Notes under the pieces: model-generated
The model's input: the letters and a program-made list of their open reading frames with translations, nothing else
Told to the model about the DNA's origin: nothing
Database searches by the model: none
Shown here: positions 16,866-60,956 of the stretch, in pieces
How positions within the stretch are numbered: position 1 is the stretch's first letter
Layout of the letters: each line of letters begins with the position of its first letter
Program-made: the position numbers and the translations under genes
Assembly (NCBI RefSeq): GCF_905475395.1
Contig: NC_058342.1
Span: 28,740,640-28,804,639 of the forward strand
Direction: 5' to 3'
Length of the DNA stretch: 64,000 nucleotides
DNA from: Chrysoperla carnea
Lineage: Eukaryota > Arthropoda > Insecta > Neuroptera > Chrysopidae

Positions 16866-17806
16866 TTAGTACCAACTATAAAACGGTTGATGATGTGATC
16901 CAAAATGTGTACTTTTATGATGTATATGCGAGTGTCCACTAATAGCGGCTCCAACCGCACTCGAAATATCACTCATTATATGATGATGATTCCCCATAAA
17001 TTGATTTGTCGCTGATGACGTGGTCGTATTTGGCTGCAATCCATGTAAATGATTCTGTGATAGCTGATCCAACGTGATTGTTGTTGGTATATTTGAATTC
17101 AACTCCATACTGTCTGCCATTTTAATACGATGATCCATATGTTCCAATTGTGGATGGTTCGATTGTAATTCCAATAAATGTGAATGTTTTTCTGTGTCGT
17201 GTAATTCTGGTGTTGACCATAATTGTTTCGGACTCATATTCCATGGATTTAAATGATTTTGGAATGTTGACGTATTATGATCTGGACTTAAATTCATGGT
17301 ACCCCAATGATGATGATTGTCTAGGCGTAAAAGGGCATTATTATCCTGTAAATTGTCCGAAATGTTGCTGTTACTATTCGCACTGTTGGGACCAATCATG
17401 GTTACACTTGTCAAGCTGCTTGGAGTCGGTGGTAAATGGTTTCCCGTGTACGTTGAAGTATTCTCGGTTTTATACTTATAGTTATTATTCGTATGGGTAT
17501 CCGTTGTGGTGGTAACGGAAAGACCTGTCGAAGTTGTCATTGGGGTGCGTTCATCATCTAGTTTACTTTTGGAATTCATATCGGAATGGATGTCTATGGA
17601 GGGAGAGGAAGATGGTACTTGAATTGCCGTCGATGGCATTAACGGTGGTAACAAATGATGCGATGAACTTGGAGGTATGTCGTTATTCGAAGAACTTTGG
17701 GTGTAGCAACATGTATTTGGTGTTGTGTGTTCTGGTAGTAGATATTGTTGATTCAAAATGTGGTCGGATGTTGTGGACGTAGACACTGGGTGATATAGTT
17801 CTGAAA
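16866..17806 (-). CDS. prd: Pax3/7 exon 5 (C-terminal domain and stop)
   Basis: This exon encodes about 313 residues of low-complexity sequence with Ser/Thr/Asn runs and many His clusters (NHHHW, HSHIHHK, GSHHQ), ending PFYSWY then TAA. Such tails act in transcriptional activation in this family; that role is inferred. Two in-frame acceptors six bases apart (exon starting at 17806 or 17800) would add or omit two residues. Confidence 0.9.
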
Positions 17807-43832: not shown

Positions 43833-44098
43833 GACCTTATGTATGAAATATATCAAAGTTTATTAAGTTTAGTCCCAAATTTGTAACGCTTAGATATATT
43901 GATGGTAGAAACAAAATTTTGATATACGTAAAATTAATCTAATTGGTCAATTTACGTTTGTTTATCCATCAACACAATAACTCTAAAACGAAAAGAGATA
44001 TCGAGGTAAAATTTGTTTATATCGAGCTCAGGGCATACAAAGTGAGTTTAAGTTCATAAGTCCATTAGGTCTTGGATCCGTATGACCCATCTTGCCAA
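43833..44098 (+). mobile_element. Family A 5' fragment, A7
   Basis: It retains TATGAAATATATCAAAG, AAGTTTAGTCCCAA, a decayed microsatellite zone (GTTTGTTTATCCATC), AAAACGAAAAGAGATATCGA and TTGGATCCGTATGACCCATC, then stops. The 3' half is absent. Confidence 0.65.
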
Positions 44099-44868
44099 AG
44101 CTAAGGATTGACATCGGTGGCATTGCTGTACTCAAAACTTCCGTAAATTATATGAAATTTCATCTAACTTGATGGGATTAAATTTTATATGTTTTACGTA
44201 TTATTCATTGGGTTATTTCTAAAACAAATCATTAGATGCAAAAAATAAAAAAATTTCCATAAAAATATTTATGTGAATCATGGCCATATTCATTGCTGTT
44301 GTGTCATATGCTTTGTTTACCAACATGAAAAAAAAGTACAAAATTAATTTGATTTTTTTTCTAACCAAAAAACTATAGACAATACCCAATTGTTTTCAAT
44401 TTTAAGAGTAGATCCGGTAAAAATATATTTAAGTTATGGGACAGGAAGTTAATCAATTATTTTTAACACTATTTTCAATATTTTCTAACAGGAAATCATC
44501 GAAATATATAGTACAGAATGATACCACCCGAAAAACATTTTTTCTTTGTATCGGCTAGATTAAAAGGTAGATATTTTGGTTTTTCGAAAGAAACTATTAG
44601 AAAATCTATAAATGTAAGGTCTTATTCTCAAATGTAAGGTAGTTTTTTTGTTAACAGGTGGCTTATTCTTCGAGGTTTCTCAAGTAGTATCTTGTCTATT
44701 TCATTTCAACCAAATTAATCGAAAGCGGCTCATATTAAATACGGTTCTCATCATTTTCCAGGAAAACAAATAAATCGTATTCGTACGTAACAATTTTCTG
44801 AATTAAAGTAGTGCAATAAAACCAAAAATTTCTATAAACTACGATGTGTAAACGTGGAAAAAAAACTA

Positions 44869-44938
44869 GTGCCCTTGCAAGGAGCGGAACATCGATTAAA
44901 ATTGAAGTACAATATTCTATCGACTGAGCTACCACCGT
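44869..44938 (-). pseudogene. Degenerate tRNA-Lys relic
   Basis: CGACTGAGCTACCACC and ATTAAAATTGAAGT keep the D arm and a decayed anticodon arm of the tRNA-Lys at 45643. Acceptor and T stems no longer pair. It is the outermost remnant of the left array. Confidence 0.6.
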
Positions 44939-45001
44939 TTTACATATTACAGCAATATTAAACATTAACCCATAGCATTATCAGTCCTAAAAATATAAGG
45001 T

Positions 45002-45055
45002 GAGCAAGGACTTGAAAACGATAACTTTGTATTAATTCCAACGAGGCACCCGATT
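45002..45055 (-). pseudogene. Strongly decayed tRNA-Lys relic
   Basis: Only AAGGACTTGAA, TTAATTCCAA and GGCACCCGAT remain recognisable. Flanking spacer (TTTACAAATTACAGCAGTG, TATTCAGAATAAATATTA) matches the spacer beside the relic at 46899, which identifies it as part of a copied block. Confidence 0.5.
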
Positions 45056-45150
45056 TTACAAATTACAGCAGTGTGCGCCATCAAGGGACAGGAATATTCA
45101 GAATAAATATTATTAGTAAAAATATTGAGTGTTCAGTGTGTAAAATATAT

Positions 45151-45223
45151 TGCCCCAGCAGGGACTTGAACCCTGGACCCTTGGATTAAAAGTCCATTGT
45201 TCTACCGACTGAGCTACCCGGGC
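45151..45223 (-). pseudogene. tRNA-Lys (UUU)-like, damaged stems
   Basis: It has the right length with anticodon TTT in CTTTTAA, but the acceptor 3' strand is CTGGGGC, giving a G-G mismatch. The anticodon stem starts ATGGA against TCCAA, giving another. Other arms match the intact copies. Probably non-functional or weak. Confidence 0.7.
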
Positions 45224-45313
45224 TTACTTTTTATAGCAACTTTGTATACATCAAGGAAGAAGGAATAGTTTACGATGATACTAAATATTTTATTTTTAAA
45301 TTGAAAAATATAT

Positions 45314-45386
45314 CGCCCGAGCAGGGACTTGAACAATGCACCCTTGGATTAAAAGTCCAATGCTCTACCGACTGAGCTACCCGGGC
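45314..45386 (-). pseudogene. tRNA-Lys (UUU)-like, broken T arm
   Basis: Acceptor, D and anticodon arms are like the intact copies, but the T stem 5' strand reads GCATTG in place of CCAGGG and cannot pair with CCCTG. The B box GGTTCAAGTCC is also damaged. Likely a pseudogene. Confidence 0.8.
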
Positions 45387-45479
45387 TTACATTCAATATG
45401 AACTTTGTATACATTTTCCAGAAGAGAAATTTAACGAAGATACTAAAATAAGTTACTTTTAAAGATGAAAAAAGTTAAC

Positions 45480-45550
45480 GCCCGAACAGGGACTTGAACC
45501 CTGGACCCTTGGATTAAAAGTCCAATGCTCTACGACTGAGCTACCCGGAC
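45480..45550 (-). tRNA. tRNA-Lys (UUU), one D-loop base missing
   Basis: The D loop reads AGTCGTAG where intact copies have AGTCGGTAG, removing one of the invariant G18-G19 pair. The acceptor 5' strand is GTCCGGG (U-G pair at 2-71). The anticodon loop CTTTTAA is intact. The same D-loop deletion is found at 59529, 59693 and 59857. Functionality is uncertain. Confidence 0.65.
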
Positions 45551-45642
45551 TTACGTTTGCTTGTAGAATCGTATATGTCAAGCAGAAGGAGATTTTATCA
45601 TAATGATTAAAATATGTTATTTCTTAATATGAAAAAAGTTAT

Positions 45643-45715
45643 CGCCCGAGCAGGGACTTGAACCCTGGACCCTTGGATTAAAAGTCCAATGCTCTACCGA
45701 CTGAGCTACCCGGGC
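45643..45715 (-). tRNA. tRNA-Lys (UUU)
   Basis: Full 73-nt tRNA: acceptor GCCCGGG/CTCGGGC, D arm AGCTCAGTCGGTAGAGC, anticodon stem TTGGA/TCCAA with CTTTTAA loop, T arm CAGGGTTCAAGTCCCTG, discriminator G. A T6 terminator follows (ATAACTTTTTTCAT). This is the best copy of its block. Confidence 0.95.
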
Positions 45716-46228
45716 TGATATCAATCAAATATATTGTATACATCAGATCGAAGACACCAAATATGTTTGGCGAATAAAAGTCTGAACAAAAATATCAATT
45801 TAGACCCTTTAGAAAATTAATACAATATATATTATTTAATTATTAGTTATTATTAACAAAAAATGAGCCACACATTTCTACGTGTTCGGCATTCACCGTC
45901 GATATGTCACAATATCGATATTTATCATCCGATTTTTACATAACGATAATCCTATTTCGAGTATCAATACAATTTTTGGATGTAGGTAAACATAATTACA
46001 CCCTGTATTTCTATATACATATGTGTTAGAAATGTTTTTAAAAACACATTGCTACAGTCATAAATTTTGAAATCTATTCAACCGTTAACTAACTATACAA
46101 TAAACATTAACAATTATTATTTTATTACAGTCGAGTACTAATTATTATAATTTTTACAAGGAAATTTTTATTGAAATTTGTATGATAGATACCCGCAGGA
46201 TAAAAAATTGTATAAATATAGTCTAAAA

Positions 46229-46730
46229 CAAGTGAAAACAAACAATTGACTGAGTTAATTGTTGAAATACTATGTATAGATAGTGTTGATTACTCTGATA
46301 CATACATGTCACACATATACAACTATACAATTTGCGCATAATTTGCGCTCTCACGGGTAAACAGTGATGTTTAGGAAAAAATGTTTCAAACAAAAGTTTT
46401 TTTTATTTTTTATAACGAACATTTTTTACATTTAAACTTTTATTCTATTTCTAACGGTTTACAATTTGGGTTCTACGAACCCAAGATCCAATTGACCTAT
46501 GTTGCTCATTACGAACTCGGCCTCACTTTTCACTCAGTACGCTGTAAAAATTTCAGCTTGATATCTCTTTTCGTTTTTGAGAAATCGTGATGGCCGGAAA
46601 TGGACTAATTAGGTTATTTTATGAACACCTATACCAAAATTTTGTTCATGGTATCAATATTTTTAAGAGTTACAAACTTGGGACTAAACTTAGTGTACCT
46701 TGGTATATTTCATATATATATATGGTATAA
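46229..46730 (-). mobile_element. Family A, near-complete copy, A8
   Basis: In reverse it contains the whole structure from CAAGTGAAAACAAACAATTG through GCGCTCTCACGGGTAAACAG, TTTCAAACAAAAG, ATTGACCTATGTTGCTCATT, CAGCTTGATATCTCTTTTCG, GAACACCTATACCAAAATTT and CTTGGGACTAAACTTAGTGT to TATGGTATAA. The microsatellite is reduced here. It separates two tRNA-Lys blocks. Confidence 0.8.
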
Positions 46731-46898
46731 AAATTATGTAGCTATTATTTGATTATGAAAATTATGTGCTATTGGAATTCTATTAGTTGGAAGTAATTTC
46801 CAATTTTATATTTAAATTTTATATTAAAAGTAATATATTTATAAAAATTTGTTGATTTTTGTTTTATTAAATTATACACAGGCAAACTTTTGAAGAAT

Positions 46899-46962
46899 GG
46901 TCCAGGCAAAGACTTAAACACTGGATTAATTCCATTGGTCTACCGATTGAGGTACCCGATCG
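46899..46962 (-). pseudogene. Degenerate tRNA-Lys relic
   Basis: GATCGGGTACCTCAATCGGT, CCAATGGAATTAATCCAG and TTTAAGTCTTTGCCTGG on the minus strand follow the tRNA order but no stem set remains. The relic and its spacer match those at about 45002-45120, so both belong to copies of one ancestral block. Confidence 0.65.
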
Positions 46963-47056
46963 TAAAAATTATAGCAGTATTAATCATCAGTTCACAGGAA
47001 TATTGACTAAAAATATTATTAGTAAAAATATCTAGAGTTTAGTGCGTAAAATATTT

Positions 47057-47129
47057 CGCCCGAGCAGGGACTTGAACCCTGGACCCTTGGATTAAAAGTC
47101 CAATGCTCTACCGACTGAGCTACCCGGGC
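47057..47129 (-). tRNA. tRNA-Lys (UUU)
   Basis: All 73 nt match the consensus of the intact copies, and every stem pairs. The downstream T-run is only four T (ATATTTTAC), a weak terminator. Confidence 0.94.
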
Positions 47130-47221
47130 TTATGTTATATGGTAACTTTGTATACATGATCCAGAAGGAATAGTTTACGATGATACTAAAAAAAGTTCTT
47201 TTTTAATATGAAAAAAGAAAT

Positions 47222-47294
47222 CGCCCGAGCAGGGACTTGAACCCTGGACCCTTGGATTAAAAGTCCAATGCTCTACCGACTGAGCTACCCGGGC
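47222..47294 (-). tRNA. tRNA-Lys (UUU)
   Basis: Identical in sequence to the copy at 47057. It is followed by TTTCTTTTTTC on the minus strand as terminator. The unit spacing to the neighbours is 165 bp. Confidence 0.95.
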
Positions 47295-47386
47295 TTACAT
47301 TTTCATACAGCATTGTGCATTTCAAGTCGAAGGAGAGTTAATCATACTGATTAAAATATGTTGTTTCGAAATATGAAAAAAGTTAT

Positions 47387-47459
47387 CGCCCGAGCAGGGA
47401 CTTGAACCCTGGACCCTTGGATTAAAAGTCCAATGCTCTACCGACTGAGCTACCCGGGC
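47387..47459 (-). tRNA. tRNA-Lys (UUU)
   Basis: Full-length and identical to its neighbours, with terminator ATAACTTTTTTCAT. It is the first gene of the second block in the sense direction. Its upstream spacer (CAGATCGAAGACAC on the plus strand) is the same as that of the copy at 45643. Confidence 0.95.
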
Positions 47460-47521
47460 TGATATTTCACATTTATATTGTATACATCAGATCGAAGACA
47501 CATCCTTCGATAACATAATAT

Positions 47522-47576
47522 GTTTGATTTTATGAACACCTATACCAAAATTTTGTTCGTAGTCTTGGGACTAAAC
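47522..47576 (-). mobile_element. Family A short fragment, A9
   Basis: ATTTTATGAACACCTATACC, AAAATTTTGTTCGTAG and CTTGGGACTAAACTTG remain. The rest is deleted. Confidence 0.6.
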
Positions 47577-48210
47577 TTGAAAGAAGTGAAATTATATTGA
47601 AAGAAATTTTTTATAAATTATAAATGGTTATAATTGATTATGTAGAATGTCAAGTACGCGAGCGCAATCTGTGAATCGTAAATAAAACTATTATTAAATT
47701 TTAGAACACGAGCACCATCTCTGAACGGAATATGAAATTATTTTTAATATCAGACAATGAGATGAAGAAGTAAAAAGGATGAAATTTCAAATTTCGAAAT
47801 ATCCCAGTATAATGACGTAAAGAAACTTCACTTAAAAAATTTAAAACAAAATTTCATGCGTTTGAATTCGCAAATAGTTTGCTATTTTCTCAAAATATAC
47901 ACAAGAAATTACTCACGCATGAAATCGCAAATTCTACGAGGTGTGGGGCGTCCTATAAAGACTACTCAGAGCATGATTTACTCCCGGTACTCTATATACC
48001 TACATGAATTCGTTACAAAAACAACACTTAAAAGTTGCTTCCTATAATTTTGCAAAACTGACGCCAACAATATGTGTTGCAATCGGATAAATACGATATA
48101 CGTCTACAAAATATTGTAAGTAACTAATAATAAAAATTTTTAATTGGTTATTTATTTAAGCGCTACAATTAACTTTTGAATCGGAAATTATTTTCTTATA
48201 TCATCATTGT
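47577..48210. other. No recognisable content
   Basis: AT-rich sequence with a short open frame at 47856-48047 that has no recognisable similarity. I see no RNA gene or repeat in it. Confidence 0.5.
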
Positions 48211-48783
48211 TATACCCTGTATATATGAAATATATATCAAGGTATACAAAGTTTAGTCCCAAGTTTGTAACTTTTAAAAATGTTGATGCTACGAACAAAA
48301 TTTTGATGTAGGTGTTCATAAAATTCACTTCTGGTTATCCGTTTGAATATCTATTCGTCCTTTTGTCTGTCTGTCTGTCTGTGGGCATGATAACTCAAAA
48401 AAGATCAAGCTGAAATTTTTATAGCGTGCTTAGGACGTAGAAAATGAGATTGAGTTCGTAAATGAGCAACATAGATCAATTGCATCTTGGGTCCATGAGA
48501 CTCACCTTGTAAACCGTTAGAGATTGAACATAAGTTTAAAAAATGTTCCTTATGAAAAGATAAACAACTTTGTTTGAAATGTTATTTCGTAAAAATCGCT
48601 GTTTACCAGTGAGGGCGCAAATTATATAGTACATATGTGCGTGACATGTATATATATTTGGCTTTCTAAGAGTGGCTATATTTCTTTGCTTACATGACGT
48701 AAAACAAAAAATTATGGCATAATCAACAATGTATATACATGGTATTTCAACAATTTACTCAGTCAATTGTTTGTTTTCACTTG
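48211..48783 (+). mobile_element. Family A, near-complete copy, A10
   Basis: It runs from TATACCCTGTATATATGAAA and AGTTTAGTCCCAAGTTTG, via TTTTGTCTGTCTGTCTGTCT, TGATAACTCAAAA, AATGAGCAACATAGATC and GTTTACCAGTGAGGGCGCAA, to a GTGACATGTATATATA module and the TTTGTTTTCACTTG end. About 573 bp, one of the longest first-module copies. Confidence 0.8.
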
Positions 48784-49163
48784 TTTTTATTATAAATATG
48801 TAAATAAAAGTTTCGATATATACTTGTAAACTATATATTTTTCCAATGCCATGCCATCTGATTTTAATTCACGTGGGTAATACTTTAATTTCGGATGGCT
48901 TTATGTGTTTTAGAATAATAAGTGCTTTACTTTGAATATTCTAGTTCAAAAAGTCGAGCAAGAGTTTTTATCAAAATTTTATTGAGAAAGAGAAGGTAAA
49001 TAAGATAAAAAAATTGCGATGGTTCAAAATTCGATCTATAATCTTTAACTGAATCTCTTGTGCTTGTTATGACGCGAACCATGGCTTCCTCACTTCAATG
49101 TCGTATTCATCACAGATATCGCTCATGCTCAATTTTACCGAGCTCTTTTCCAACGTTTCATCT

Positions 49164-49328
49164 TTATTCAATCAAAATATGTTTCGCAGCATCAGCTAGT
49201 TCAATAACCTGTCCAAGATCCAGGTTGTCTGTTTGAAGTATACTCGACTCAAAGACAAAGTCAAAGAATGTACCGAACTCAAAATAATATGCATGAATAT
49301 CTGATTCACCAGTGGAAATGCGTCTCAT
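49164..49328 (-). other. Short unrecognised open frame
   Basis: A 54-codon minus-strand frame, MRRISTGESDIHAYYFEFGT then FFDFVFESSILQTDNLDLGQ, ends with TAA at 49164. Its amino-acid mix is less AT-biased than that of other short frames nearby. I recognise no family. It may be a transposase scrap, as it lies beside repeat-like GGGGTTTTGATCCCCAAAAC sequence. Confidence 0.2.
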
Positions 49329-50155
49329 TCATGGGTGCATTTTCAGGACTATATTGACAAAATTTGTGTGAACAGATTCTCAATGGGAGGGGTTTTGATC
49401 CCCAAAACCCCTCGCTTTCGCACGGGTCTGGTTTGACGTCATACATCTTTCGAATTGGCTATAAATAACATTCTTAGGGGGATCATTTTGGGATACTCTG
49501 TTCTATTTTGCAATTTTCACGTCTGTTGCAAAAATCATATTTTCAAATAGATACCTAAAAAAATTGTGTGCAAAGTTCGTAGATTCAAATTTAAAATAAT
49601 AAATTCAATTGATGTAATAAAAAAAAAAAACAAATTAAACTAGGTGTCTTGTATATATATTCAGGTACTTATTGCTAAATTTTTGGAAAGTGGTTCAGAT
49701 ACGGATGATCAACCATACAGATCATGGTTTTCTCATCTTATAAACATATTATTGACAAGTTATTGTCATTTATTATTATTAAGAAACTACCATTTTATGA
49801 ATTAATCAATAAAATTCATAAAAATATTTAGGCAAGCTAGGTAAATTCGATTAATTCATAAAAATATATTGGTCTATTACAGCGAAACTTGGTTAAGTGG
49901 GACGTGGATAAGTGAGAAATCTCCATAACTCATGCTGAGGTCCCAAAACTTTGGCACTGAATTACCTCTGTTAGTGAAACGAAGCAAACCTCTAGATCTC
50001 TTGTTGTGTTTGTTTACTTACTTATTCATATTGTACCCACAAATTCCGCACTTAATTAATTCTGAGCCTCAATGACCTTCAGTTTTAGTTTTGCTTTACT
50101 ACTATGCAGGTGTTTATTTGAAAATCAGTACGTGAAACAGTTTTAGTGTGCCCTA

Positions 50156-50393
50156 ATTTGTGCCCTCACGGGTAAACAGTTAACGAAAAAATGTTTCAAA
50201 TTGTTTATTTTTATATAAGGAACATAAACTCGGTTCTATCTTTAACGGTTTACAAGATGTTGCTCATTTACGAAATCAAACTCACTTTTTACGTCCTGAG
50301 TACGCTATAAAAATTTCAGCTTGATATATCTTCTTCGTTTTTGAGTTATCGTGTGGAAATGGACTAATTAGGTGATTTTATGACCAAAATTTA
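50156..50393 (-). mobile_element. Family A internal fragment, A11
   Basis: In reverse: TGTGCCCTCACGGGTAAACA, AAAAAATGTTTCAAATTG, GGTTTACAAGATG, GTACGCTATAAAAATTTCAG and GAAATGGACTAATTAGG. Both termini and the microsatellite are missing. Confidence 0.65.
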
Positions 50394-51249
50394 AAAAAAT
50401 ATAATTAATGTTTAAAAATGCAGTAATTAAGGGTGATCTTATTAATATGTGATCTGTCAATTGGTGACAGTTCAATGTATAATTTACACTTTAAAAAAAT
50501 GAATTTATTCAATACGGAATTTACACAAGCTATTATTAAGTTTTCTTATCAAAAGCCGTCGAATAATATAACTCAATGTAATACTATACAAAATATAAGT
50601 AATTAATACCATACAGTATACCAACAAATCTGACAAGCCACATACTATGACGTCACGTCTGTTTAAAATTTGAATTTCCGTTTTAGAAATTTGAATTTCT
50701 CTCACTGAATTTGTATTTTTATTAATTAATGTTAAGTAATTGAAATGATATTAATTACTAAAATAATGGTTTCGTTGAAATATCCAGCCAATAAAGTTAT
50801 GGAAAAAAAGTATTTGAACCAAATTTAAATTTCATGAATACTCCCTATTATCACAATATCGGGCTACGCTGACAACAGTGGTGTCCTATTTATTAACGCT
50901 ATTATATTTATATGTAAGTTATACTCGTAATACATGTTAATGATACACAAAGGCTATTTGTCCGTTTCATAAAAACACCCCATACCATAAATTATATTTA
51001 CAAAACATGACTTTTTATATTTTTTTATTTAAAAAAATTAATTATAATAATCATTGCATTAATATTATTCATTGATTAGTTGATTAATGTGTATGAATAA
51101 AAAAAATGTGTAATTTAAGTCTTTGTTAAACACGCATAACTCTTAAGGTTCCATAAAGTCTGCTAACAATGAATTTATATAGAGGAGAATGGGATAAACA
51201 CGAACGGCGGGTAATTACGAACAGTGTAGTTTTAGATGAAATAAATGCA

Positions 51250-51559
51250 ACTGTTTACCAGTGAGGGCGCAAATTAGCAGAAAAATTTTGTGTCCATTTT
51301 CTCCAAAATTATAAAAGATAGAGAGTTGAAAATTTGCAGGTAGCTAGCTTCAACTAGTAGCTTTGTGGCTTCTAGAAAATACTTTCTAGAAAATCAAATA
51401 AATATCGGCCGAAAGGGTGCCAAAATTGTGTTGGTTTTTTAAACGCTTCTAATTTATAAAAAAAACTAATGCAAGCACTAATATTCAATAATTTCTATAC
51501 TAAATGTCAAACACAGGATAATTCAACAATTAACTCAGTCAATTGTTTGTTTTCACTTG
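51250..51559 (+). mobile_element. Family A 3' half, alternative module, A12
   Basis: It begins at CTGTTTACCAGTGAGGGCGC, carries the module TTTTCTCCAAAATTATAAAA .. AAATTGTGTTGGTTTTTTAA, and ends TTCAACAATTAACTCAGTCA .. TTTTCACTTG. The next base begins copy A13, head to tail. Confidence 0.75.
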
Positions 51560-51876
51560 TTATACAATGTATATATGAAATATATCAAGCTGTACTAAGC
51601 TTAGTCCCAAGTTTGTAACCCTTAAAAATATTGACGCCACGAACAAAATTTTGGTATAGATGTTCATAAAATCACTTAATTAGTCCCTTTACGGTTTTCT
51701 GTCTGTCGAGCTGTAATTTTTATAGCGTGCTCGGGATATAAAAAGTTAGACAGAGTTTGTAAATGAGTAACATAGGTCAATTGGGTATTCGGTCCATGTA
51801 TGTCTGGTTACCTTTCTGGCTACGATTGCGTAGTCAACACTATTTATACACTCAGTCATTTGTTTGTTTTCACTTG
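51560..51876 (+). mobile_element. Family A deletion derivative, A13
   Basis: The 5' part (TATACAATGTATATATGAAA, TTAGTCCCAAGTTTGTAACC) is joined to a shortened middle and directly to the 3' terminus CATTTGTTTGTTTTCACTTG. It follows A12 with no gap. Confidence 0.75.
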
Positions 51877-52084
51877 TTTTTCAATAATTTTAGTTTGACA
51901 TTTACTATACCATTTAAACAATTGAAAGTTCATAGTCATATTTTAAATAAAATGCATGATTTATTGCAAATTTTATAAGATAAGAGCGCTGCGGTCGATT
52001 TAACTGTCCCCACCGCGCCGTCTACTATTCTTTCTGCCAATATAATAAAGATTCTTTATAGGTTGGTATATCACTTATATGATG

Positions 52085-52344
52085 GTATACAGAATGTTCG
52101 ATTTACATCTAGGCATATAAATATCACGAGAATGACAGAATACATGTGTTAAGCAATGCATCTATTTAAGAGGTATTATAGGTGTTATATATTACTCTCC
52201 AAGCATCTTACAACTATCTCAAAGCATATCGAAGCTTCAATACATGTATATAATAACTCTCACTTAGATGCATTACTTCACGCATGTATTCTGTCATACT
52301 CGTGATATTTATATGCCTAGATGTAAATCGAACATTCTGTATAC
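52085..52344. repeat. Fold-back sequence with 90-bp arms (family K)
   Basis: GTATACAGAATGTTCGATTT, ACATCTAGGCATATAAATAT and CACGAG.ATGACAGAATACAT occur in both arms in inverted orientation. The spacer is about 80-90 bp and the arms differ at few positions. GAATACATG and AATGCATCTA tie it to the fold-back at 38328. Confidence 0.85.
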
Positions 52345-52842
52345 TGAATTGAATACAGCTGGAGTAGGTATTATATTTATTGAAAGTAAACTTTTTTGAT
52401 GGTGTTATTTAAGACTGTAATGACTACTGGAATATATTTTGGACACGCTTTAATACATCCATCAGTTTTTTTTATATTAAAAGTTTACTTACTACCATTA
52501 CACCTATAAGGGCTACCAACTACCAACCGGTTACCACATTTTCAAAAGCTACCCAAATAAACACAATTTATTTTTATTTATATAACATATATTATAAAAA
52601 CAGCTACCGTATTTTTTAGTCAACAATAAAAAAAGAAGATGTACTTTTTTTTTATTTATTTTTGTTGTTGTTAAATTATTATAGTTAATTTCATTTTAAA
52701 TTAGTTGCTATATGTGATATTAAAGTTTTATTTGAAATCCCACCCACGATTCTGTCGAAATTGAATTGCGAATTAATTTATCTTTGCGCAGTGTGAAAAA
52801 AATATCAAAACTATATCTATTGTTTCATCTCTATCTCTATAA

Positions 52843-53294
52843 ATTATAAATGTCAAAGTAAGCATGTTTGTTTGTTTGTTTGTTACGCTTTCACGCTAAA
52901 ACTAGCGAATGGATTTCAATGAAACTGTACACCAATATAGCTGATATATCAGAATAACTCATGAGATATAATTTATAAAAATATATTAATAAAAAAATAT
53001 AAAAAATTTAAAAATTATTTTAATTTGACATTACCATAAATTACAGGTTTCTGTAAAAGTAGTCATTTGACATTACCATAAAAATTACAGATTTCTGTAA
53101 AAATAGTCAATATAAAATATTTCACGGCCATCTTTTCTGATATACTCAATGAATAGTTACGACTATTATACATTTAAAAAAATAGAAAACCATACATATA
53201 TTTTACCTGTGTAAAACAATCCTTTTCATTATTTCGAGTGTTATAGAAAGGGGATAAACGAGAGCAACTAAGCGAAGCGGGTGGGTATCACTCT
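52843..53294 (+). repeat. Family F (Helitron-like) copy
   Basis: It starts TCTATAAATTATAAATGTCA then GTTTGTTTGTTTGTTACGCT and TTCACGCTAAAACTAGCGAA, and ends GCGAAGCGGGTGGGTATCAC. These two ends are typical of a repeat class common in insect genomes. An internal block TTGACATTACCATAAA..TTACAG is duplicated at about 53024 and 53068. Confidence 0.6.
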
Positions 53295-53391
53295 AATTAT
53301 AAAATATTTTCGATTATTTTTTAGATCGAAGTATATGTCTGGGTAGTTTTACAAACTAAGGAATTTCGACGTCTCAGCTAAAATATCATGA

Positions 53392-54003
53392 AAGTTTGTA
53401 ACGTTTAAAAATATTGATGCTACCAAAAAAATTTTGGTGTAGGTGTTCGTATAAACACCTAATTAGTCCATTTCATCAACACGATAACTCAAAGACGAAG
53501 AAGATATATCAATCTGAAATTTTTGCAGCGTGCTCAGGACGTAAAAAGTGAGTTTGAGTTCGTAAATGAGCAACATAGGTTATTTGGGTCTTGGGTCCGT
53601 AGGACCCATCTTGTAAACCGTTAGAGATACAGCAAAAGTAAAAAATGTTTCTAATAAAAAAATTAACCACTTTTGTTTGAAACATTTTTTTGTTTGAAAA
53701 TCACGGTTTACCCGTGAGGGCGCAAATTAGGACAATGAAGTCCATTTTGTTCAAAACTATGAAAGAGAGGGAGTTGAAAATTGGCATAAACTGATGGTTT
53801 TGTGAAATTTTCTCAAAAACGAAAAAAATTCTACAAAATACTTTCAAAAGTTTTTGAAAACCAAAACCAATGGCGGCCGAAAGTCCACCATAATTGTGTT
53901 AGTTTTTTAATATTTTCTCATTGATGAAAAATAATGCAAGCACTGACATTCAACACTTTATATAGAGGATATTTCAACAATTAACTCAGTTTGTTTTCAC
54001 TTG
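53392..54003 (+). mobile_element. Family A, long copy with alternative module, A14
   Basis: It starts inside the 5' block (AGTTTGTAACGTTTAAAAAT), lacks the microsatellite, keeps AATGAGCAACATAGG, GTCCGTAGGACCCATCTTGT and GTTTACCCGTGAGGGCGCAA, and then has the second 3' module (AAACTATGAAAGAGAGGGAG). It ends TTTGTTTTCACTTG. It directly follows a remnant of the GTTCTACAAACTAAG element. Confidence 0.75.
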
Positions 54004-54523
54004 TTTACTTTTAAAAAATTTATTTTTCATAGCAAATACCTCTAGCTCTTTCCAAAAAGAAACCTCAGCTTTGTGAAGTTAAAACTGATGTGAAATAGCT
54101 GCAAAATTAAAATGTTTTTAGAGTCCTAAAGTGAAATTACTTCTTGTCTCTAAATCACGCATTAGAGCTATCATTTAAGCATAAACTTATTTCCAAATTC
54201 TTTTAAAATTCTAAGTAATTCAAATCCGTAAGCAATGAATATATATATAGATAATTTTTGATTAAAAAATGAGAAAATTATTATTTTTATATAAAAAAAT
54301 ATAGTTTATAAGAAGAAAAAAAAACCCTGAAAAATGAAGACAATGGGAAGTTCTCTGTAACATAACAAAATTGTAAGAAGGTGTTTTTTGATAATTCTAT
54401 GAATACAGTACTTTTTTTGTAACAAAATATATATATTGGGTATAAATTATACAGATAGTCCCCCCTGATAAAAAAATCCAATACACAAATTGGAAAATTT
54501 CCAATTCAATCAATTGGAACGAA

Positions 54524-54820
54524 TGGGTAAACAGTGATGTTTACGAAAAAATGTTTCAAGCAAATGTTGTTTATTTTTTTATAAGGAACATTTTTTACAT
54601 TTAAACTTTTGTTCTATCTCTAACGGTTTACAAGATGGGTCCTACGGACCCAAGACCCAATTGACCTATGATGCTCATTTACGAACTCGACCTCACTTTT
54701 TACGTCCTGAAATTTCAGCTCGATATCTTTTTTCGTTTTTGAGTTATCGTGTCCACAGACGGACAGACAACCGGAAATCGACTAATTAGGTGATTCTATG
54801 AACACCTATACCAAAATTTT
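54524..54820 (-). mobile_element. Family A copy, A15
   Basis: In reverse: GGGTAAACAGTGATGTTTAC, TCTCTAACGGTTTACAAGAT, GGGTCCTACGGACCCAAGAC, CAGACGGACAGACA and AACACCTATACCAAAATTTT. It is cut at both termini. The GGGTCC..GGACCC hairpin is perfect here. Confidence 0.7.
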
Positions 54821-54829
54821 AGCTCCTTA

Positions 54830-56070
54830 ATATTGAGTTATGAACAAATGTGTGTAAAAAGTGTTTTCAACTTTTTACAGGACACCCTGTACATACGTAT
54901 ATACACATATAGGTATTGTGAATGGCTTTTAGATATTTTGATATGCCGCTCGTATGTCATGCGGATCCAATCAACGTTATATAAAAAAATAAATTAAATT
55001 TTTTTTTTAATGACTGCTTCTGAAAAAAGTTTGAACAACACAAAATATTGTAAGATATTTTTATATATTACAATTTCATTATATATGTACTGATTTTTTG
55101 GTGTTGTGATCCATTTTTTGGGATCAAAACTTTAAATGAGATTATTCATCCATTGTTGCCAACTCTTCATTATTATCTTACTTTTATATCGAAACTATGG
55201 AGGAAAGAGTTATAAGGAGAACCACATCATATGAGAGAAAATATAAAAAAGTGTCTAACTGTAAGCTATAAATAACAGTTCAAAAACCATTCAGAATGGC
55301 GCTGGTGTAAACAAAGGGTATTGTATGAATCCTTCCCTTATATAATTGTTTCCTTATCTATCCTACTCTTATTACTTTGAGCACATCTTTTAAAATGTAC
55401 ACTTTTGCTACAGCAGCGCCTTTCTTATTTAATGCTTTACTAGGGACACTTTTTGTATACAGAGATTCTCCTTTTACTCTACAGTCCATAATCGAAACGA
55501 GAATTGAAACTGTACAATTTTAGTTAAATCTTTTTAGATAAAAAACTTTATTAAAAAAAAAAAAAAAGTGGTAAGTTTTCGAAATCGAAAAAGTGGTAAG
55601 TTTTTGATTATTTTAGACTGGTCAAATTTTACACGCTTTTAGAATGAACTACGGTCCTACTTTGCCATCTGCCTATTGATTTTATCTCATCTAGAACCGG
55701 AGATATTAATCAAGATACGTTTAAGACTACCCTGAATCCAATTTTGGGCTTAAGATCCACGGTCCAAAAGGTCTAAGTACAACAAAATTAAATTACATGC
55801 AAAATATTGTGTAATTGTACATTTATGAATCAGAATGGTATAATTTGGCAACATAGCATTGGAATAAGTATATTTTATAATTTTAATAACATCATTGAAA
55901 ATGAAATGCACTTCGATCCTTTATTTAAAATACTGTTCGTTCTCAATAAACATTTCTTTAACAAGAAATAATACTACTAAAAGAGTCAATTTTTAAATAT
56001 CTTGTATACTTTGTAAATTAATTATCCTGTATGTGATTCTTTTAACTTAAGAGTTGTAATTGCAAGAAAT
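54830..56070. other. No recognisable content
   Basis: AT-rich sequence with poly-A stretches and a short duplicated AAGTGGTAAGTTTT motif near 55568 and 55590. No gene, RNA or repeat family is recognised here. Confidence 0.5.
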
Positions 56071-56121
56071 CTGGACCCTTGAATTAAAAGTCCAATGCTC
56101 GACCGACTGAGCTACCCGGGC
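56071..56121 (-). pseudogene. Truncated tRNA-Lys (5' part)
   Basis: The acceptor 5' strand, D arm and anticodon arm are present, with a D-to-anticodon GTCGAGC substitution. The sequence leaves the tRNA in the variable/T region, so the T arm and acceptor 3' strand are missing. It is non-functional. Confidence 0.85.
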
Positions 56122-56211
56122 TTATATTTTGTAGAAAATTTATATACATCAAACCCAATGGATATTTAAAATTGATACTAAAATATATATTTTTAACACG
56201 AAAAAAATTCA

Positions 56212-56284
56212 CGCCCGAGCAGGGACTTGAACCCTGGGCCCTTGGATTAAAAGTCCAATGCTCTACCGACTGAGCTACCCGGGC
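56212..56284 (-). tRNA. tRNA-Lys (UUU)
   Basis: Full length with all stems paired. One variable-loop base differs from the consensus (GGGCCCAGGG for GGGTCCAGGG). A seven-T run follows on the minus strand as terminator. Confidence 0.93.
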
Positions 56285-56289
56285 TTGTA

Positions 56290-56485
56290 TTTTCTATAAA
56301 CACTAAAATCGTGAACAAAATCATTTCTCACTACTCTAGTTGAAGACTTCAAATCAAGCGTGATGGCGATTCAGCAATCATAATGCTAATTTTTGCTTTT
56401 CCGACCCTGACCACGCGGTGGTCCGGCTAAACCTTTCAAGCCCATCACTGCCGGGCGAGGCCCGAAGAGGTGGCAACCCTAACTC
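56290..56485 (+). mobile_element. Family J MITE, right part only
   Basis: TCTCACTACTCTAGTTG, TGGCGATTCAGCAATCATAA and CGGGCGAGGCCCGA match the right 160 bp of the element at 37083, ending AGGTGGCAACCCTAA. The left part is missing and the left edge joins tRNA-Lys spacer. Confidence 0.65.
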
Positions 56486-57015
56486 CAACACAGTAAATTT
56501 TATGATGAACTTTTCTTACAAAACTATAACACATTTGTATATATATAACAATAAAAATAAAAAAATTATACGCATACTTATACATACAAATTCATTCAAA
56601 AAAATAAATTCAATATTTAAATATAAAAAATACAAAACATTCATGCCTTCTTATAACAAAATAAATAATAAATTGAAGAATATATATTATTCATTCTCAT
56701 ACAGATGTCATTACTATCTAGCTACTTCTCCAAGTCAGTTGAGAGCTACTTTATTAATTTATTTATATTTTTTATTATTAATTTTTTTTTTTTAATATAA
56801 ATTAGAATGGATGTATGTTGTTACAACATAGTAATAAAATTCAATAAAAATATCATTCATGATTTTAAATTAATATGTATAATAAATATATTCAAGTTTG
56901 GTAGACTGATTGGGGCCGACATTTACTTTAACATTTTATTGATTATACTACGATCATACTTCGATGTCTTACTTTTTATATTTAAATATGTTGTCTCTAA
57001 ATATTCAAAATATAT

Positions 57016-57088
57016 CGCCCGAGCAGGGATTTGAACCCTGGACCCTTGGATTAAAAGTCCAATGCTCTACCGACTGAGCTACCCGGGC
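57016..57088 (-). tRNA. tRNA-Lys (UUU)
   Basis: Full-length, with a single T-loop change (TTCAAAT for TTCAAGT) that also alters one B-box base. All stems pair. A short TTTT follows as terminator. Confidence 0.92.
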
Positions 57089-57180
57089 ATATGTTATATG
57101 GCAACTTTGTATACATCATGCAGAAGGAATAGTTTACGATAATACTAAAATATGTTGTTTTAAAATATGAAAAAAGAAAT

Positions 57181-57253
57181 CGCCCGAGCAGGGACTTGAA
57201 CCCTGGACCCTTGGATTAAAAGTCCAATGCTCTACCGACTGAGCTACCCGGGC
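57181..57253 (-). tRNA. tRNA-Lys (UUU)
   Basis: Matches the consensus over all 73 nt, with terminator TTTCTTTTTTC. The spacing to its neighbours is 165 and 164 bp. Confidence 0.95.
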
Positions 57254-57344
57254 TTACATTTTATAGCAACTTTGTATACATCAACCAGAAGGAATAGTTT
57301 ACGATGATACTAAAATATTTTATTCTTAAACATACAAAATATAT

Positions 57345-57417
57345 CGCCCGAGCAGGGACTTGAACCCTGGACCCTTGGATTAAAAGTCCAATGCTCTACC
57401 GACTGAGCTACCCGGGC
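57345..57417 (-). tRNA. tRNA-Lys (UUU)
   Basis: Matches the consensus over all 73 nt. The upstream spacer continues to about 57505, where the tandem unit is cut off without another tRNA. Confidence 0.95.
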
Positions 57418-57519
57418 TTATATTTTATGGCAACTTTGTATACATGAAGCAGAAGGAATAGTTTACGATGATACTAAAATATTTTATTCTTAAACATGCA
57501 TAATTATAGAAAACTACAA

Positions 57520-57690
57520 TTTCTCCCCAACGACCTATGATACAGTGCATAAGTCTATATCTTCAAGAATACATGATCAAAAAAGACAAGACTACTGCAT
57601 CTCCTCATCGTTGATCTTAAATACAATACATAAGTCTACATTTTCGGGGAAAATATGAATAAAAAAGACAAGACTACTGTTTCATATGAT
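57520..57690 (-). repeat. Short duplicated repeat (family G)
   Basis: Two diverged direct copies, near 57536 and 57620, contain AGTGCATAAGTCTA / AATACATAAGTCTA and AAAAAAGACAAGACTACTG. The reverse complement (TAGACTTATGCACTGTATC type) also occurs near 4540, 23975 and 26330, so it is a dispersed repeat. Confidence 0.5.
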
Positions 57691-57699
57691 CTGTCTAAA

Positions 57700-59300
57700 A
57701 AAATATAATTAATGATTTTTTGAAATCATTATTGTTGTTTAGATGTGGTCCAATTTATTTTTAACAACGATTTTTGTGAATGCTTGCTCGATTTTCTGAA
57801 TGAAATAGTTTTTTTTTTGTGCTAGTGTATAATTAATAACAATATATTTTTTAATGATTTTTGAGAAAGGCCAGTCTTCTTGTTTGTAAGAATATAAGGT
57901 ACATACCTTGCTTATGTGATTACTACCAGATTTCTTATTGAATTAATTTAACAATGCAAAAAAGAAACATACCTACTGCAAAGAATTCCACAGAAACTTT
58001 CATCCTCAGTTTGATCTTCTCTTTCTACGAAAAAATTCTTTCCAAACCAAAATTATGACGGACATACAGACAATCCGAGATGAACTAGTTAGGTTAATTT
58101 TATGAACATCTATACCAAACTTTTGTTCGTAGCATCAATACTTTTAAGCATTACAAACACTTGGGTCTAAAATTATTTTGTGGATTTGTTGTGAATTGTT
58201 ACAAAAAGTTTCAAATCTGCGATAATTTTTGTATTTTTATTTATAAGTTTTACTGTAATTGTTGGTAATGTTTTACATTATTTTATTTTTAATTTTGTGA
58301 AAAATGTTTGTAATGTGTTATATGAATAAATTAAGCTACTGACGATGGTTGCAATGCAATCGAAATAATCATATATAGTGAAATGTAAGTCTGTTGTATG
58401 TTTTTTGATTATATTTTTTAAATAGAATTTCTTAATATACAATTTTATTTCGAGTATCGTGGTATTTATTTCAATACCTATGTCTCAATTCGATGTCACC
58501 AAAGATTCATCATTAAAATTTTAAACTGGGTGAAAAATATTTTGGGTTTTTGACTAACAATATGTCAACATTCGTTTCAAAGCATTATGCATTCCTCTGG
58601 AAACATTATATTACGGAATTTAGTGCCCTGAGGTTTCCAGATCTTTTATCCGAAACGATACAAATAGAATGCGTCCATTTGGGAGAGAAGTTCATGTTAT
58701 TGTTTTAAGGGGAGTGGAAAATTGTCATGAGGAGTAAGGCACAATAGAAAAACTCGAAGCTTTGCATATGACATAAATTTTCTTAAATATTTTTCCAATC
58801 TAAGTATTTTGAAACGAAAAACCCCAAAATTTGAGGGGATAACAAATAACTTTCCCTAACTAGATTACAATAACTTCTATTTATCGATTTTTGCAAAAAC
58901 GGAAATAGAAGTTAAAACTAATAATATAGACCATTCATATGACCTCCATGTAAATAATTAACTTCTATTATTATTTAAAATCAATCCTATTTCAATGGAT
59001 GAATTTAATTTTTATGATACAGTCCACAATCACTTGTATATAAGATTATATTAGATTTATGTTTGGAGTAAGTCATAATAATTATTATAAAATCTTTTGT
59101 ACTGGAATCAGTTTGATTTATTGTACCTTTGCTTCAAAAGTGTTCCAGAAACCCACAGATTTTTAAACTTTCGAATAACCCTGGGCAATATTTCATTAAT
59201 TTCACTTTAGTGGAAATCATTTCATTATAGACTTTAATCCAAGGGTGCGGAGTTTTAGTCTTTGTTCGAGTTATATAAATTTGGCTTTTTAAAAATTACA
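57700..59300. other. Spacer between inverted tRNA-Lys arrays
   Basis: No gene is seen. A family A fragment lies at 58054-58172. At 58870-58915 a 12-bp inverted repeat (TAACTTCTATTT / AAATAGAAGTTA) with a loop of about 20 nt forms a small hairpin of unknown meaning. Confidence 0.5.
58054..58172 (-). mobile_element. Family A 5' fragment, A16
   Basis: In reverse: GGACATACAGACAATCCG, TTTATGAACATCTATACC, TTTTGTTCGTAGCATCAATA and CACTTGGGTCTAAA. The rest is missing. Confidence 0.6.
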
Positions 59301-59363
59301 AATTGAAGTAAGATTATTTCTATCACTTTGCTGTGATGTTTTATACATTTCTAGAAATATCAG

Positions 59364-59436
59364 GCCCGGGTAGCTCAGTCGGTAGAGCATTGGACTTTTA
59401 ATCCAAGGGTCCAGGGTTCAAGTCCCTGCTCGGGCG
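59364..59436 (+). tRNA. tRNA-Lys (UUU), plus-strand array
   Basis: Full 73-nt consensus gene with the complete D loop AGTCGGTAG. It is followed by GATAGCTTTTTTCAT as terminator. It is the first gene of the plus-strand array and the only intact one before three shortened copies. Confidence 0.95.
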
Positions 59437-59528
59437 ATAGCTTTTTTCATATTTAGAAACAACATATTTTAATCATTATGATAAAATCTCCTTCTGCTTG
59501 ACATATACGATTCCACAAGAAAATGTAA

Positions 59529-59600
59529 GCCCGGGTAGCTCAGTCGTAGAGCATTGGACTTTTAATCCAAGGGTCCAGGGTTCAAGTCCCTGCTCGGGCG
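59529..59600 (+). tRNA. tRNA-Lys (UUU), one D-loop base missing
   Basis: 72 nt. The D loop is AGTCGTAG, so one of the G18-G19 pair is absent. All stems and the CTTTTAA loop are intact. A T6 terminator follows. It could still fold, but tertiary D-T loop contact should be weaker. Confidence 0.75.
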
Positions 59601-59692
59601 GTATCTTTTTTCATATTAAGAAACAACATATTTTAATCATTATGACAAAATCTTCTTCTGCTTCACATATACGATTCTACAAGAAAATGTAA

Positions 59693-59764
59693 GCCCGGGT
59701 AGCTCAGTCGTAGAGCATTGGACTTTTAATCCAAGGGTCCAGGGTTCAAGTCCCTGCTCGGGCG
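59693..59764 (+). tRNA. tRNA-Lys (UUU), one D-loop base missing
   Basis: 72 nt and identical to the copy at 59529, with an almost identical spacer. This points to very recent tandem amplification of the 164-bp unit. Confidence 0.75.
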
Positions 59765-59856
59765 ATAACTTTTTTCATATTAAGAAACAACATATTTTAA
59801 TCATTATGATAAAATCTCCTTTTGCTTGACATATACGATTCTACAAGAAAATGTAA

Positions 59857-59928
59857 GCCCGGGTAGCTCAGTCGTAGAGCATTGGACTTTTAATCCAAGG
59901 GTCCAGGGTTCAAGTCCCTGTTCGGGCG
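59857..59928 (+). tRNA. tRNA-Lys (UUU), one D-loop base missing
   Basis: The D-loop deletion is as in its neighbours, with in addition a TTCGGGC acceptor 3' strand (G-U pair at 7-66). It ends TTCGGGCGTTAAC, the same as the minus-strand copy at 45480, which is its likely counterpart. Confidence 0.72.
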
Positions 59929-60020
59929 TTAACCTTTTTCATCTTTAAAAGTAACTTATTTTAGTATCTTCGTTAAATATCTCTTCTGGAAAATATATAC
60001 AAAGTTAATATAAAATGTAA

Positions 60021-60093
60021 GCCCGGGTAGCTCAGTCGGTAGAGCATTGGACTTTTAATCCAAGGGTCTAGGGTTCAAGTCCCTGCTCGGGCG
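60021..60093 (+). tRNA. tRNA-Lys (UUU)
   Basis: 73 nt with an intact D loop. One base (GTCTAGGG for GTCCAGGG) lowers T-stem pairing at its outer edge by at most one pair. Its upstream spacer equals the one between the minus-strand copies at 45314 and 45480. Confidence 0.88.
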
Positions 60094-60184
60094 ATATATT
60101 TTGAATGTTTAAAAATAAAATATTTTAGTATCATCGTAAACTATTCTTTCTGGTTGATGTATACAAAGTTGCCATAAAATATAA

Positions 60185-60210
60185 GCCCGGGTAGCTCAGT
60201 CGGTAGAGCA
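60185..60210 (+). pseudogene. Truncated tRNA-Lys (acceptor and D arm only)
   Basis: GCCCGGGTAGCTCAGTCGGT and AGAGCA are intact, then the sequence changes abruptly to unrelated AT-rich DNA. The break marks the end of the plus-strand array, on the 164-bp period. Confidence 0.9.
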
Positions 60211-60800
60211 ATATGTTTCAAGCAAGTCCCTAAAGTTTTTGAGCCCAAAATCTCCATTTCTTGTACTATGAGTACTTTATGAGTATATTGGTGCATTTAA
60301 TTTTAGTAGGTACAAATTTTGATGAATATTTTTCGATGTACGCCACTAAAAATATGTGTAATAATGTGTGTAATACAAATTATGACAGGCTTATCAAATG
60401 CATTAAGTCTTAATAACCATATCTTATGCAATATGGGTGGCCTCAATTTAACTAACGTTTGTTTTTGTATATTCATAATATTATATTTGTTAATTTTATT
60501 TAGTGGATATTCAAATTTAAAAACAAAAAACGTCCTCATCTCGTATAGTTTAAGAGTAATTATTCTAAAAATATAGTAATTAATAATTTTGCTGTATCAT
60601 TTTTAAAACCCTCATCACATAATAAATCTACTAACTTTATTTTATTTAATAACGTAAAGATATTATTTTTAAAGTTTTGAAAATTGTATGTGATTTTTAT
60701 AAAGGTTCGTGAAAGTTTAAAATATTTGAAGTTACGAATAGAGAAGCCAAAATCGTACCCCTCAACTTTAAAGAGTCAATACATTTTTCTGATTTATCAT

Positions 60801-60956
60801 ACCATGTACATTGTATATGTGAAATATATCAAGGAATACAAAGTTTAGTCCCAAGTTTGTAACGCTTAAAAATATTGATGCTACCAACAAAATTTTGGTA
60901 TAGGTGTTCATGAAATCTTCTAATTAGTATATTTTCGGTTGCCCGTCTGTTATTAT
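60801..60956 (+). mobile_element. Family A 5' fragment, A17
   Basis: TACCATGTACATTGTATATG, AAGTTTAGTCCCAAGTTTG, TGATGCTACCAACAAAATTT and GGTATAGGTGTTCATGAAAT are well kept. It stops in the microsatellite zone (GGTTGCCCGTCTGTTA). Confidence 0.7.

Follow-up and report, generated by a model that had tools for sequence, protein, structure and literature searches.

A probable birth-and-death cluster of tRNA-Lys(UUU) genes built from a ~164-bp unit in Chrysoperla carnea

The window analysed here, a stretch of 64,000 nucleotides from Chrysoperla carnea (Insecta; Neuroptera; Chrysopidae; RefSeq assembly GCF_905475395.1, contig NC_058342.1, positions 28,740,640 to 28,804,639 of the forward strand), carries a cluster of tRNA-Lys(UUU) genes and gene relics, all of which lie within 44.87-60.21 kb of the window in a region of 31% GC. 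ARAGORN predicts 16 tRNA-Lys(ttt) and two tRNA-Ala(agc) genes in the window, and the same 18 tRNA genes are recovered by the Rfam model RF00005 at its gathering threshold. The full-length tRNA-Lys genes span positions 45151 to 60093, and all 16 of them have the anticodon ttt and the anticodon loop CTTTTAA. The loci are organized in five blocks, namely A (44873-45715, minus strand), B (46902-47459, minus), C (56066-56284, minus), D (57016-57417, minus), and E (59230-60210, plus), with the following constituents (spacer types are defined further below):

44873..44933, minus: A6, decayed tRNA-Lys relic (nhmmer E 4.5e-05)
45002..45056, minus: A5, strongly decayed tRNA-Lys relic, weak (nhmmer 45002-45041, E 0.31; A/B flank alignment; outer end by eye)
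45151..45223, minus: A4, tRNA-Lys with three broken stem pairs, spacer type I (ARAGORN, Rfam)
45314..45386, minus: A3, tRNA-Lys with two broken T-stem pairs, spacer type III (ARAGORN, Rfam)
45479..45550, minus: A2, 72-nt tRNA-Lys lacking one D-loop G, spacer type II (ARAGORN)
45643..45715, minus: A1, consensus tRNA-Lys, first unit of block A (ARAGORN)
46902..46958, minus: B4, decayed tRNA-Lys relic (nhmmer E 3.3e-07)
47057..47129, minus: B3, consensus tRNA-Lys, spacer type I (ARAGORN)
47222..47294, minus: B2, consensus tRNA-Lys, spacer type II (ARAGORN)
47387..47459, minus: B1, consensus tRNA-Lys, first unit of block B, near flank in common with A1 (ARAGORN)
56066..56121, minus: C2, 3'-truncated tRNA-Lys relic (nhmmer E 2.1e-16; Rfam 25.2 bits, under the gathering score)
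56212..56284, minus: C1, tRNA-Lys with one variable-loop substitution (ARAGORN)
57016..57088, minus: D3, tRNA-Lys with one T-loop substitution, spacer type I (ARAGORN)
57181..57253, minus: D2, consensus tRNA-Lys, spacer type I (ARAGORN)
57345..57417, minus: D1, consensus tRNA-Lys, spacer type I (ARAGORN)
59230..59268, plus: E0, decayed 3' part of a tRNA-Lys (nhmmer E 5.5e-04)
59364..59436, plus: E1, consensus tRNA-Lys, first full unit of block E (ARAGORN)
59529..59600, plus: E2, 72-nt tRNA-Lys lacking one D-loop G, spacer type II (ARAGORN)
59693..59764, plus: E3, 72-nt tRNA-Lys lacking one D-loop G, spacer type II (ARAGORN)
59857..59928, plus: E4, 72-nt tRNA-Lys lacking one D-loop G, spacer type II, with a further substitution in common with A2 (ARAGORN)
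60021..60093, plus: E5, tRNA-Lys carrying a single G-U change in its T stem, spacer type III, partner of A3 (ARAGORN)
60185..60210, plus: E6, first 26 nt of a truncated tRNA-Lys, spacer type I, partner of A4 (profile, spacer comparison)

Six of these entries (A6, A5, B4, C2, E0, and E6) are truncated or decayed relatives added by an nhmmer profile built from the 16 full-length Lys genes, beside which a second profile was built from the units. The gene profile returned 24 rows in the window, comprising 22 Lys loci and the two tRNA-Ala genes (E 0.18 and 0.21), with 21 of the 22 Lys loci at E < 0.001. The exception, A5, scores no better than the Ala genes (E 0.31 with the gene profile, 0.27 with the unit profile) and is counted as a locus only on the strength of the alignment between the downstream flanks of blocks A and B, which extends through A5 and B4. 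With the window reversed, a single row (E 0.87) came from the gene profile and none from the unit profile. Similarity and profile searches found no further Lys gene in the rest of the 64-kb window, and outside the units the spacer queries gave just short, AT-rich matches of 19-35 bp (E 0.004). A permissive Rfam scan also gave sub-threshold rows for mir-722 (one) and mascRNA (seven, on the tRNAs themselves), which were set aside as chance or cross-matches.

Within the blocks, the units are arranged head to tail, and all 13 intervals measured from 5' end to 5' end are 163-165 bp (18 loci, leaving out the relics A5, A6, B4, and E0). The blocks are separated by gaps of 1186, 8606, 731, and 1812 bp, which are AT-rich and contain several stretches of one interspersed repeat family; none of the three open reading frames of at least 90 aa at the locus (two in the gaps and one just past block E) matches Pfam at E 0.01. 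A previous, model-made reading of the letters (hereafter the sequence-only reading) had counted 19 Lys loci with this same spacing. The spacing holds in every measured interval, and the count is about right, with 16 full-length genes plus the clearer fragments and 22 loci at most. Its description of a regular tandem array applies within the blocks; taken as a whole, the 15 kb is not a single array but five short blocks, with block E on the opposite strand. Published systems are cited here by their PMC identifiers. Under the definition of a homogeneous cluster as genes for the same amino acid within 1000 nt (PMC2888827), the loci group into four clusters, i.e., A, B, C and D joined, and E.

The copies range from identical genes to relics. 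Seven of the 16 full-length copies have identical gene bodies, and several copies carry private changes. All stems are paired and the 8-base D-loop with its GG is complete in 10/16, the number that the sequence-only reading had given for full-length genes with paired stems. Four further copies (A2, E2, E3, and E4) have fully paired stems but lack one of the two D-loop Gs, a doublet that matters for the tertiary contacts with the T-loop; this D-loop-deleted form occurs once in block A and three times in block E. The stems are broken in the remaining two, A3 (two pairs) and A4 (three pairs). The Pol III T-run, earlier ascribed to most copies, is present in all 16 full-length ones, where a run of at least four Ts starts 5-7 bases past the gene. 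Insect tRNA genes often use an upstream TATA-like element, and a TATA occurs between -40 and -15 in 16 of the 18 upstream regions (7.1 in base-shuffled controls), starting at -25 in 14 of the 18, while the stricter TATA[CTA]A is found in 12/18 (2.8 in shuffles); since the copies are paralogues, neither these TATA counts nor those of the T-run are independent.

The 91 bp upstream of 18 copies were compared as spacers. These upstream regions resemble each other by type rather than by block, with three types discernible: type I (A4, B3, D1-D3, and E6; 77-95% identity), type II (A2, B2, E2, E3, and E4; 79-96%), and type III (A3 and E5; 93%), which show 55-77% identity to one another. FastTree recovers type II with a support of 0.999 and type III with 0.940. 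No type was assigned to C1 or to C2, the latter being up to 70% identical to type I. Read in the direction of transcription, the order of units is first-II-III-I in block A, first-II-II-II-III-I in block E, and first-II-I in block B. Further, blocks A and E form an inverted pair (523 bp at 94.5% identity), while A and B have both near flanks in common and align in two registers one unit apart (456 bp at 88.4% and 517 bp at 82.8%). The recurrent spacer order, the inverted A/E match, and the registers of A and B shifted by one unit together indicate tandem duplication of the unit followed by copying of whole blocks. Hence, the earlier proposal that whole tRNA-plus-spacer units were amplified is borne out by spacers that are homologous across units and fall into ordered types. 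Its further picture of expansion and decay is largely sustained, in that the blocks differ in unit number and the copies span the range from identical to relic; the word "ongoing" goes beyond what the sequence shows, as even the closest unit pairs differ by 4-7% in their spacers. The block-level duplications, the inverted one included, are absent from that reading, as are the D-loop deletion common to four copies and the contrast between gene and spacer. As judged from sequence, the pattern is consistent with duplication of units in tandem and of blocks, single units having been gained or lost afterwards. The differing numbers of type II units in A and E may reflect either an expansion in E or a contraction in A, a substitution absent from E2 and E3 being common to E4 and A2.

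Comparison of the genes with their spacers shows that the former have changed less. Over five disjoint pairs of units, 9 of 363 gene sites differ, as against 47 of 454 spacer sites (Fisher p 5e-06). This test is preferred to a six-pair version including A1-B1 (p 1e-14), because part of the A1-B1 upstream region falls beyond the repeated unit. Of the nine gene changes, eight sit in the two pairs that include a stem-broken copy; in the three pairs without one, two of which consist of D-loop-deleted copies, the counts are 1/217 for the gene and 20/273 for the spacer (p 7e-05). Likewise, D1, D2, D3, and B3 differ at 1/73 gene and 28/91 spacer sites (p 2e-07). The stem-broken copies behave in two ways: A3 shows no difference between gene (4/73) and spacer (6/91) against E5, whereas in A4 against B3 the gene is still less changed (4/73 vs 21/90; p 0.002), so that the decay of A4 would have to be recent. 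The four D-loop-deleted copies have at least 2 changes in 72 gene sites as opposed to 11 in 91 spacer sites (Fisher p 0.04), which is only suggestive of constraint on their bodies.

We propose, with a probability of roughly 0.88, that the locus is an ordinary nuclear tRNA-Lys(UUU) multigene cluster under birth-and-death evolution, built by local duplication of the ~164-bp unit. In this proposal, a unit comprising the gene, its upstream TATA-like element, and the terminator would have been duplicated locally. The number of units would then have been altered by unequal crossing-over or replication slippage between near-identical units, the usual mechanism for such changes, and whole blocks would have been copied by segmental duplication with inversion. 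Copies with an intact cloverleaf, internal promoter, and terminator would be transcribed by Pol III and supply tRNA-Lys, with selection holding the intact copies while surplus ones decay. Selection on working copies combined with the release of broken ones is the best fit to the gene and spacer numbers.

Several observations weigh against this proposal, in addition to the non-independence of the promoter and terminator counts. Pol III activity of the copies is a prediction from their sequence, and the copy number is that of this one assembled window. With respect to the duplication history, FastTree does not unite type I in a single clade (node support no higher than 0.54), and identity between types I and III goes up to 77%; type I is accordingly a similarity group only. 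For the most part there is little resemblance among the upstream regions of A1, B1, E1, and C1 (32-57% identity), A1 and B1 having just a near flank in common, and the block boundaries are thereby blurred; E1 resembles B1 in the last bases only, as judged by eye. Finally, the low divergence of the genes could partly stem from gene conversion.

This last point leads to the main rival on the side of selection, namely that conversion limited to the gene homogenizes the bodies, rather than selection acting on each copy. In its favor, the seven bodies are identical though their spacers differ by up to ~45% (B2 vs B3), and concerted evolution of tRNA families has been described (PMC4981973). However, conversion might pull in adjoining spacer, yet distinct spacer types persist beside identical genes, and the D-loop deletion likewise persists in four copies. 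The broken A3 has diverged from E5 at the spacer rate, as is expected if loss of function frees a copy, though the body of A4, likewise broken, is still less changed than its spacer, which keeps this point from being decisive. On balance, we regard conversion as an unlikely substitute for selection. An improbable variation on the theme of selection is that the D-loop-deleted copies A2 and E2-E4 specify a functional variant tRNA-Lys, or a tRNA-derived RNA, retained despite the partial loss of the GG.

Tandem repeats are prone to misassembly, and an inverted copy as similar as that of A and E (94.5%) might arise from duplicated haplotypes or misordered repeats. That the pattern is even partly an artefact of this kind is nevertheless very improbable: the units are distinguishable from one another, with 4-7% difference between the closest spacers and private changes in several copies; A and E differ in unit number and lie on opposite strands; and a local alignment of the DNA upstream of A1 and E1 gives just a weak match. 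We assign a slightly smaller chance to the cluster being kept less for tRNA supply than for chromatin organization, with its Pol III genes acting as an insulator or boundary, a role for which the human 1q23.3 tRNA tandem repeat offers a precedent as an implicated boundary element (PMC4041453); in the lacewing locus, it is the tRNA body and not the spacer DNA that shows constraint. The remotest prospect is that the unit is a tRNA-derived mobile element (a short interspersed element [SINE] or a short long-terminal-repeat [LTR] element with a Pol III promoter) accumulated here by chance, for although tRNA-derived SINEs are numerous in many eukaryotic genomes (PMC9935246), hymenopteran Helenus LTRs hold sequence alignable to tRNA-Lys (PMC10886601), and many repeat stretches lie between the tRNA blocks, the seven identical bodies and 10/16 intact copies are unlike the degraded head of a SINE, none of the 16 genes is followed by CCA, the longest A-run in the 91 downstream bases is 2-6, the units stand head to tail at fixed spacing, and no Lys gene was found in the remainder of the 64 kb (no systematic search for LTRs or target-site duplications was made).

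A birth-and-death origin by local duplication places the cluster among systems already known. A survey of 74 eukaryotic genomes found tRNA clusters to be dynamic and unstable, with local duplication as the prime suspect (PMC2888827), and the homogeneous clusters described there share with the present one same-amino-acid genes within 1 kb, a mostly parallel orientation, interspersed pseudogenes, and growth by local duplication. Those clusters are mostly small, including the drosophilid ones; the lacewing cluster departs from them in its near-constant within-block spacing and in a unit order that recurs between blocks. The sequence-only reading had called such arrays unusual in insects, which is partly right: drosophilids have mostly homogeneous pairs, i.e., tRNA genes for the same amino acid side by side, yet most of their clusters are small (PMC2888827). 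The Arabidopsis SYY cluster of tRNA-Ser/Tyr/Tyr genes is comparable in having grown by tandem duplication and in comprising one major sequence along with minor variants and tRNA-like pseudogenes (PMC12308677); it differs in its Ser-Tyr-Tyr repeat, where the lacewing has one isoacceptor and fewer copies, known from sequence alone. The human 1q23.3 variable-number tandem repeat similarly places tRNA genes in repeat units, whose number there varies between alleles, but its unit is 7.3 kb long and GC-rich (PMC4041453), in contrast to the ~164-bp unit in a region of 31% GC. In Entamoeba, too, tRNA genes occur in tandem units; there, almost all tRNA genes are arrayed, in units of as many as five genes and together with microsatellite-like repeats (PMC2652664), as opposed to one isoacceptor in one cluster. 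A candidate precedent from Culex was rejected, being a head-to-head tRNA-Lys/tRNA-Glu pair bearing CCA in a retrotransposon, along with SINE-like Twin elements, and no gene array (PMC3286476); the earwig genome paper reports genome-wide tRNA counts (PMC9935246). No nuclear tRNA-Lys tandem array in an insect appeared among the literature matches listed, which cover titles and the starts of abstracts from few subscription journals and are no evidence of absence.

The cluster is thus of a known kind, in the lacewing a well-preserved example and not a new system, and leaves the current knowledge of tRNA gene clusters unaltered. It provides a compact record of the growth and decay of a tRNA family, in which the duplications can be partly ordered from unit order, spacer types, and shared mutations, while the gene-versus-spacer comparison suggests which of the copies remain under selection. 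The pair formed by the broken A3 and the intact E5, together with the D-loop-deleted copies, offers small natural tests of when constraint on a tRNA gene ends.

Elsewhere in the window, which has a GC content of about 30%, the interspersed repeat family forms 17 merged stretches, of which 11 lie within 43838-60950; it is seemingly denser around the tRNA blocks than over the remaining window, though this density may be biased by queries drawn from the tRNA region. Opposite-orientation copies of the repeat flank block B (46298-46740 and 48202-48660), and a repeat fragment (47525-47562) is located where the A/B flank homology ends. Beside block C, a short GC-rich stretch in AT-rich DNA (56404-56480) is possibly a retroelement end, as judged by eye.

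The two tRNA-Ala(AGC) genes (ARAGORN) at 21349-21421 (minus) and 31507-31579 (plus) share a 74-bp match with one difference, and their 300-bp flanks show just 10-15 bp matches at chance level. The former gene sits between a frame matching the Pfam paired box (28016-28333) and one matching the homeodomain (18425-18880), whose best solved relatives by sequence are 1pdn and 1fjl, respectively, both of Paired, which we take to be the Drosophila protein. The frames in 18425-28333 on the minus strand are probably exons of one paired/gooseberry-type (Pax3/7) gene. Downstream of the homeodomain frame, a 340-aa frame (16866-17888) gave no Pfam match and may be the last exon of this gene. A further open frame on the plus strand (12433-12810) matches the spermine/spermidine synthase domain.

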